Shown here: in pieces, positions 20,028 to 20,592 of the stretch | Position numbering within the stretch: the first letter of the stretch is position 1 | How the letters are laid out: the number at the start of each line of letters is the position of its first letter | Assembly: GCA_003153435.1 (NCBI GenBank) | Contig: PLYR01000064.1 | Span: 1 to 53,889, forward strand | Direction of reading: 5' to 3' | Length of the DNA stretch: 53,889 bases | Source of the DNA: Bacteroidota bacterium | GTDB taxonomy: Bacteria > Bacteroidota > Bacteroidia > Palsa-965 | Notes under the pieces: generated by a model | Told to the model about the DNA's origin: nothing | What the model saw: only the letters and a program-made list of their open reading frames with translations | Databases searched by the model: none | Made by a program: the position numbers and the translations under genes

Positions 20028-20116
20028 GGAGAGATGCCTGAGAGGCCGAAAGGAACAGTTTGCTAAACTGTCGTACGAGTCAAATCGTACCGAGGGTTCG
20101 AATCCCTCTCTCTCCG
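20028..20116 (+). tRNA. tRNA-Ser (anticodon GCT)
   Basis: Class II tRNA of 89 nt. The acceptor stem GGAGAGA pairs with TCTCTCC (20109-20115), the discriminator is G, and the anticodon stem ACAGT/ACTGT encloses TTGCTAA with anticodon GCT at 20062-20064, reading AGC and AGT. A long variable arm and the T-arm GAGGG-TTCGAAT-CCCTC are intact. CCA is not encoded. A GC-rich palindrome cluster begins immediately after it. Confidence 0.97.
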
Positions 20117-20121
20117 CCTTC

Positions 20122-20221
20122 GCTCGCTGAAGCGAGCTATGGCGGACGCAGTCCGCAGTAGCCGCGAAAGCGAGTGCGCGATGGCTACGGACGCAGTCTG
20201 CAGGAGCTCGCTGAAGCGAGC
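20122..20221. repeat. Cluster of GC-rich palindromes 3' of tRNA-Ser
   Basis: The 16-mer GCTCGCTGAAGCGAGC occurs twice, at 20122-20137 and 20206-20221, each a perfect hairpin. Between them are GCGGAC-GCA-GTCCGC (20142-20156) and a related GGACGCAGTCTGCA copy (20189-20202). The whole block is far richer in G+C than its surroundings and has no credible gene. The rest of the space up to the GIY-YIG gene (20222-20355) is ordinary AT-rich DNA in which I see nothing. Confidence 0.7.
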
Positions 20222-20355
20222 TGAATTGGCTAAGCAGCCATTGCATTTTCTTTACCCTTCTCAGCAAGGTAGAGAAGGGGTTATATAAGAAATCCTTTGG
20301 TTTTATTTCCCACCATAAACCAAGGCACTCAATAACATAATTAAATCCACTCGTC

Positions 20356-20592
20356 ATGTGGTACGTCTACATCCTGAAATGCGCCAATGGTAAATACTAT
20401 TACGGCTGCACCTCTGATATCAAAGAACGTCTAACTCGCCATCAAAACGGATACGTTCCCGCAACCAAAGGAATCTTACCTGTGGAATTAAAGACTTATA
20501 TCACATTCGCCGATAAATACAAAGCTTTTGAATTTGAGAAGTATTTAAAATCTGGTTCTGGCAGGGCATTTGCCAGTAAACGATTTCTATAA
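20356..20592 (+). CDS. Small GIY-YIG nuclease-family protein
   Basis: A 78-residue protein that is essentially one GIY-YIG domain. The motif pair is visible as YVYILKCANGKYYYG, then the basic helix with KERLTRH containing the catalytic-type arginine, and a glutamate in FEFEKYLKSG. Short stand-alone members of this group are abundant in Bacteroidota and poorly characterised; repair, mobile-element and solo-nuclease roles are all proposed for the superfamily. It sits between two tRNA genes, 240 nt after tRNA-Ser and its palindromes, a position consistent with spread by an integrating or transposing element, but no other mobile gene accompanies it. Confidence 0.85.
   Translation: MWYVYILKCANGKYYYGCTSDIKERLTRHQNGYVPATKGILPVELKTYITFADKYKAFEFEKYLKSGSGRAFASKRFL

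Follow-up and report, generated by a model that had tools for sequence, protein, structure and literature searches.

A hairpin module and a single GIY-YIG nuclease gene recur behind tRNA and tmRNA genes, as a candidate mobile element of the homing-endonuclease type

In the window, by which we mean the whole 53,889-nt stretch of Bacteroidota DNA analysed here, a tRNA-Ser(gct) gene is followed by a cluster of palindromes and a lone gene for a small GIY-YIG nuclease. This arrangement, pointed out in a first-pass annotation made from the sequence alone, is confirmed by the tRNA call, by the 16-mer and its related units, and by a match to PF01541. The features are as follows.

20028-20118, forward strand: host gene tRNA-Ser(gct) (ARAGORN; Rfam RF00005, 55.3 bits), with the element at its 3' end
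20099-20117, forward strand: tRNA tail, from T-loop base C56 to C74 (read from the sequence; boundary T55-A58 taken from eight loci)
20113-20117, forward strand: K1, TCCGC, tRNA positions 70-74, the final five bases
20118-20156, forward strand: hairpin module CTTC-[GCTCGC TGAA GCGAGC]-TAT-GGCGGA-CGCAG-TCCGC, the element's minimal conserved unit
20122-20137, forward strand: stem-loop GCTCGC-TGAA-GCGAGC, first copy of the 16-mer
20141-20146, forward strand: A', GGCGGA, complementary to K1 and K2; its pairing with K follows tRNA type
20152-20156, forward strand: K2, TCCGC, second copy of the tRNA's final five bases (own-K recurrence at 60/66 loci)
20157-20221, forward strand: imperfect second copy of the palindromic unit (GGACGCAGTC unit plus second 16-mer hairpin)
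20356-20592, forward strand: GIY-YIG nuclease ORF, 78 aa, single domain (PF01541; Tyr5, Tyr15, Arg25, His29 and Glu61 kept)

The tRNA ends at 20117/20118, C74 being position 20117, and the CTTCG of the element begins at 20118, immediately 3' of C74, with the first 16-mer 4 nt further on; the cluster is thus as first described, but not the 6-nt gap said to separate it from the tRNA. The 16-mer GCTCGCTGAAGCGAGC occurs twice in exact form, at 20122-20137 and again at 20206-20221; positions 20143 and 20188 mark the starts of a pair of related CGGACGCAGTCYGCAG units. Both exact copies of the 16-mer in the window's own genome are at this locus; allowing up to two mismatches adds two further unlinked sites, compared with one for the reversed control. 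Uniqueness of the palindromes had been named in advance as an argument against mobility, and for the exact 16-mer this is literally the case within the genome; the architecture as a whole, however, is repeated at other tRNAs. A DNA fold of 20094-20225 has more structure than expected by chance (z = -2.98), and an RNA fold of the tRNA with the palindromes gives z = -5.99, a value that includes the tRNA's own fold. Rfam, at the gathering threshold, has no family matching the hairpin module in the window and 20 loci, and a pattern search for full hairpin units returned 10 matches across 16 genomes.

The 78-aa ORF belongs to the GIY-YIG superfamily by its PF01541 match (49.7-50.8 bits; cut-off 22.6). 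The catalytic set of this superfamily is Tyr, Tyr, Arg, His and Glu, and these residues are kept across aligned relatives (Tyr5 in 102/104, Tyr15 in 104/104, Arg25 in 101/105, His29 in 105/105 and Glu61 in 105/105). Values of dN/dS of 0.008-0.17 in six of eight pairs, the other two having no dS, indicate purifying selection. The AlphaFold model is confident (pLDDT 93), and the closest solved structures are UPF0213 proteins and Slx1, the nearest being 1zg2, a GIY-YIG protein of the UPF0213/YhbQ type (sequence profile E = 9e-14; Foldseek E = 8.6e-4). GIY-YIG is the sole domain in the ORF, and with UPF0213 and Slx1 ranking first in the PDB fold search, nothing marks the protein as an HUH Y1 transposase. 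We saw no integrase ORF in the window's element, nor, at the loci that we read, anywhere between the tRNA and the nuclease gene. The nuclease ORF lies 3' of an intact tRNA, outside any intron or intein, and is in that sense free-standing; there was no Rfam group I intron match in the window and 20 loci, and the filled tRNA genes are uninterrupted, with paired stems. Homologues in phages and plasmids are remote (one phage record at 34% identity, three plasmid records at 30-37%, and one IMG/VR locus at 48%, where ARAGORN called no tRNA), such that phage carriage is unsupported as the main route. The domain itself is an ordinary GIY-YIG domain; it is the arrangement that is unusual, and it is coherent.

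Five seed proteins were scanned against 84,980 species genomes, and the best 80 of at least 522 confirmed loci were kept: by record title, 38 from Bacteroidota, 32 from Patescibacteria, seven without a phylum name and three others. A tRNA or tmRNA gene lies on the same strand within 600 nt upstream of the nuclease gene in 66 of these 80 best loci (63/71 when limited to loci with at least 600 nt of upstream DNA), compared with 1/80 for the opposite strand and 359/9,045 (4.0%) for random points within the same loci. These counts include L071 and L076, identical proteins of one genome, L095 and L208, which have the same upstream sequence, and L093 and L119, apparently the same contigs as seeds L013 and L014. 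Among the 66, the target is tRNA-Ser in 43, tmRNA in 10, tRNA-Trp and tRNA-Ala in four each, tRNA-Val and tRNA-Pro in two each and tRNA-Asp in one; the same module is also found behind tRNA-Leu, so that at least seven tRNA types and tmRNA are involved overall. Fourteen loci had no ARAGORN call. By eye, 11 of them keep a tRNA-tail-like fragment directly 5' of a CTTCG-type motif, two of these retaining a few bases only; two others begin at contig ends, and L115 has no fragment. In a second sample, drawn from the class, 53 of 395 genomes gave a match at E <= 1e-15, the weaker of these 53 belonging to other GIY-YIG subfamilies, and a tRNA or tmRNA gene lies upstream in 17 of 25 further loci; the other eight comprise four near contig ends, three with a tail fragment and one with an unrelated 671-aa ORF. 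Just three of 24 more distant GIY-YIG loci (L018-L041) have a same-strand tRNA immediately upstream. A poorly resolved tree of 105 proteins (5 of 101 inner branches starred) requires at least 20 changes of target type, and L079 and L083 encode near-identical proteins behind different targets, tmRNA and tRNA-Ala respectively, with the same K.

GIY-YIG genes of other subfamilies also occur beside tRNA genes. Those at L033, L036, L041, L188 and L189 (and L017) lie right behind tRNA-Met, tRNA-Ala or tRNA-Ser, and at two of these loci, L033 and L036, the downstream DNA includes the displaced 3' portion of a pseudo-tRNA with an inserted palindrome, which at L033 is within the T-loop. Elsewhere in the window's own genome (L003, C119), the tmRNA gene has a 103-aa GIY-YIG gene of a different subfamily just 3' of it, and both point the same way.

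The loci share a common anatomy: a tRNA tail, CTTCG, a stem, and then a hairpin whose 3' arm is the tRNA's final five bases. Among the 66 of 80 loci with an ARAGORN tRNA, to which the test was restricted, K2 equals the last five bases of the host tRNA in 60 and misses in six, compared with a mean of 31.3 matches (sd 3.0, maximum 43) in 5,000 shuffles. By target, K2 is TCCGC at 37/42 tRNA-Ser loci, TCCAC at 13/14 tmRNA and tRNA-Ala loci and CCCGC at 4/4 tRNA-Trp loci; the rare targets have CCCAC (tRNA-Val, 2/2), CCGAC (tRNA-Pro, 2/2), ACCGC (tRNA-Asp, 1/1) and TCCTC (an odd tRNA-Ser, 1/1). In the second set, the unshuffled count is 11 matches of 17, with six missed. A' can pair with 4.82 of the 5 bases of K2 (n = 50 of the 66), compared with 4.46 when shuffled (maximum 4.66), but tracks the target less strictly than K2 does: 4/10 TCCAC loci have GGTGG, and at 6/10 A' is still GGCGG, the form that goes with Ser. 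Covariation is seen in the stem beside K1 (5.84 of 7, versus 4.30 when shuffled, maximum 4.72), and among 21 short units both sides have changed at 3 of 12 predicted stem pairs.

At eight of 81 loci the final 17 bases of the tRNA recur, with at least 16/17 identical, downstream of the nuclease gene; the tails of other tRNAs and reversed tails were each found at 0/81. The 81 are the 66 loci plus the second-set loci with a tRNA, minus those with less than 100 nt of downstream sequence, and real neighbouring tRNAs were masked. The displaced tails lie 44-150 nt from the gene, and different sequence follows them; the exception is L082, where the tail is 623 nt after the gene with a second insert in between. 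That insert (L082:2775-3329) is in tandem, the same tRNA-Ser tail being repeated, and carries a gene of the 2'-5' RNA ligase type (PF13563, 67 bits) and no GIY-YIG gene. Identity of the displaced tails starts at T55 (L223, L210), C56 (L082, L113), G57 (L046, L209) or A58 (L085, L207), and two ectopic copies away from any tRNA (L057, L186) likewise start at C56; the segment C56-C74 is thus duplicated or displaced at some loci and accompanies the ectopic copies at others. The filled tRNAs are intact, with 7/7 acceptor pairs in 55/56 (tmRNA left out) and 5/5 T-stem pairs in 56/56. A recognisable displaced tail, at the threshold of at least 16/17, is absent from 73/81 loci and from the window itself, where the best match is 11/17. 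We infer from the tail boundary, the starts of the ectopic copies and the fully paired, restored tRNAs that the break occurs in the T-loop and that the element brings or duplicates C56-C74. At L101, the tail of a neighbouring tRNA-Ser(gct) is present twice, and the ~200 nt inserted between the two copies contain no recognised GIY-YIG gene.

Comparison with relatives lacking the element, as proposed in the first-pass annotation, shows empty versions of the same tRNA in congeners. In Niastella yeongjuensis, tRNA-Ser(gga) is filled and tRNA-Ser(cga) is empty, whereas in N. soli it is tRNA-Ser(cga) that is filled and tRNA-Ser(gga) that is empty; the 3' side of the empty Niastella site is not cleanly alignable, ~390 nt being different. 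In the window's own genus, tRNA-Ser(tga) is filled in one genome (G001, locus L127) and empty in another (G000, L144), and in its family tRNA-Ser(gct) is empty in four genomes (G006-G009). The empty tRNA genes that we read have ordinary terminator-like trailers. Empty alleles of the kind expected for a free-standing homing endonuclease are thus present in the Niastella pair, both ways, in the window's genus and in its family. Further copies were found: at L127, behind a different tRNA-Ser, an 85-bp stretch of tRNA tail and near-identical hairpin shares 95% identity with the corresponding part of the window, and the nuclease gene there is broken off after four codons; the window's own genome has a decayed second copy of the element (L006), flanked by two TCCCACCCTCTCCGC copies. 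Units without a nuclease exist (L181/L186), G001 being among the genomes with such units.

Several other observations concern the same genomes. Hairpin I (CTTCGCCCGCCGAAGCTTTAGCGTAGGCGGG) is scattered through two Niastella genomes (G059, G060) in many copies of ~30 bp, which are REP-like, none of those read being beside a tRNA. Duplicated, palindrome-bearing tRNA fragments lie behind tRNA-Pro(ggg) in the window's own genome (L132, C7) and behind tRNA-Lys(ctt) in G003 (L129), and in neither case did we see a GIY-YIG gene separating tRNA and fragments. Elsewhere in the own genome (L152, C54:43242) a tRNA-Ser 3' end is orphaned: it lacks a complete 5' half, has a terminator-like trailer of its own and is possibly the footprint of an old insertion.

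We propose that the locus is a small chromosomal mobile element of roughly 0.3-0.6 kb, comprising the hairpin module and one GIY-YIG gene, that is probably of the homing-endonuclease type and enters tRNA and tmRNA genes at the T-loop. Its mobility, already suspected in the first-pass annotation, where tRNA 3' ends were noted as insertion targets and the unit as possibly mobile or spread by a nuclease, is well supported by the recurrence at many targets, the filled and empty sites of congeners and the displaced tails with their sharp boundary. In our model, the GIY-YIG protein would drive this mobility by cutting the tRNA gene in the T-loop, around T54-T55-C56-G57, and repair of the break from an element-bearing copy would let the element enter there. 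Because the element would carry or duplicate C56-C74 of the cognate tail, the severed 5' part would again be joined to a full 3' end and the tRNA would stay functional; its native tail and terminator would be displaced downstream and then decay. With less certainty, the hairpin module, in which A' pairs with K1 and K2, may serve as a site of recognition or alignment and so restrict the element to tRNAs that end in a particular way. Such a role would account for the tracking of the target by K2 and for the element hopping mostly, it seems, among tRNAs that share a 3' end, namely serine isoacceptors, or tmRNA and tRNA-Ala. The nuclease-less insert at L082 and the L181/L186 units suggest that the nuclease acts in trans or is cargo, and another enzyme may be involved. 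Some findings sit less well with the homing model: an enzyme that cuts the T-loop would be expected to attack the restored tRNA too, since its T-loop is intact, and the model does not account for self-protection; most loci, and the window, have no recognisable displaced tail; K2 is missed at 6/66 and 6/17 loci; and the tree is poorly resolved. A more far-reaching version, that this is a new class of transposable element, common to Bacteroidota and Patescibacteria, in which a GIY-YIG nuclease and a hairpin-arm guide that pairs to tRNA 3' ends, re-programmed with each change of target, insert into the T-loop with tail duplication, leaving the essential tRNA unbroken throughout, is one that we put forward tentatively.

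Other mechanisms could in principle produce a palindrome cluster and a small gene at this position. The element might act like IS200/IS605 or REP/RAYT, with the GIY-YIG protein working on single-stranded hairpin DNA, A' guiding strand transfer and insertion occurring at C74. The complementarity of A' to K1 and K2, both of which track tRNA type, would fit such a scheme, as would the REP-like dispersal of solitary hairpin I in Niastella genomes, the existence of nuclease-less units and the covariation of one stem. However, the displaced tails begin at T55-A58 rather than at C74, A' has the Ser form at 6/10 TCCAC loci, the solitary Niastella hairpins are only putative relatives of the element, and we know of no GIY-YIG protein that works by guided single-strand hairpin transfer; we consider this mechanism unlikely. 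We regard as very unlikely a passive cassette, mobilised by a host or trans-acting site-specific recombinase that takes the tail of the tRNA for its att core; in such a cassette the GIY-YIG gene would be cargo or serve for addiction. Here the attraction is that tRNA 3' ends are classical att cores, that the direct repeats of ~17-20 nt resemble attL and attR, and that the sibling insert at L082 has a 2'-5' RNA ligase-type gene instead; yet the elements are too small to encode a recombinase, the GIY-YIG gene is constant over 80 loci and two phyla (though it was also the search query), and K2 tracks many different tRNAs, unlike a fixed att site.

The second reading offered in the first-pass annotation, an RNA structure affecting tRNA-Ser maturation, finds no support, because the same tRNA, where empty, is followed by an ordinary terminator-like trailer, and the module lies behind tRNA-Trp, -Ala, -Val, -Pro, -Asp and -Leu and tmRNA as well. 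In its fuller form, the hairpins would be a domesticated trailer for tRNA-Ser 3' processing or termination, the nuclease gene being incidental. A T-run often lies 3' of the hairpin in Bacteroidota and could terminate the tRNA transcript, but the range of targets, at least seven tRNA types plus tmRNA, and a downstream, same-strand nuclease gene under purifying selection make a domesticated trailer extremely improbable.

If the homing model is right, one 78-aa gene and a hairpin would suffice for a minimal selfish element that keeps tRNA genes intact in two phyla, including Patescibacteria, and recurrence at tRNA and tmRNA tails suggests a new way for selfish DNA to inhabit essential genes unharmed. 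The target-matching 5-mer makes target choice directly testable, and the model offers an explanation for the many small GIY-YIG genes behind tRNA and tmRNA genes.

Several known systems share parts of this arrangement. Genomic islands that integrate at tRNA genes by tyrosine recombinases use the tRNA tail as att core, restore the tail and leave direct repeats; our element differs in having no recombinase, in being far smaller and in having many targets. REP/RAYT and IS200/IS605 elements combine short palindromes with a small nuclease gene and base-pairing between hairpin and target; ours has the GIY-YIG fold rather than that of an HUH Y1 transposase and is bound to tRNA tails. Seg proteins have a long DNA-binding part, and the single 78-aa domain of the element's protein is without one. 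The closest precedent is SegB of phages T4 and T6, likewise a free-standing GIY-YIG homing endonuclease in a tRNA region: according to the available passages, it is encoded between tRNA genes (PMC2988022, Table 1), its cut sites fall within tRNA genes, and cutting is enhanced by the motif RAWTSGAAC (PMC13096335). On the other strand this motif reads GTTCSAWTY, which on our own reading would be the T-loop consensus, a name not given to it in the available part of PMC13096335. SegB differs in being a phage gene, and those passages describe no tRNA-tail duplication, target-bound hairpin module or target-matching 5-mer. In the openly licensed literature we did not find such elements, tRNA-tail handling of this kind or a target-matching hairpin described. 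Because tail handling and the target-matching hairpin are absent from the searchable literature and from the scanned Rfam families, we rate the element as a probable free-standing homing endonuclease element of known kind with new features; a categorically new transposition mechanism is possible. Group I introns of tmRNA genes, as described in the available part of PMC11915505, enter at the T-loop, as our element would, at four subsites, including in Bacteroidia, and some have homing endonuclease genes; they differ in being spliced as RNA and, in that set, in having LAGLIDADG nucleases, whereas the element restores the tail as DNA. By analogy, the cutting of tRNA genes by SegB and the position of the tmRNA introns favour a model of homing into the T-loop, and they suggest that the T-loop may be an entry point common to group I introns, SegB, tRNA islands and the element described here.
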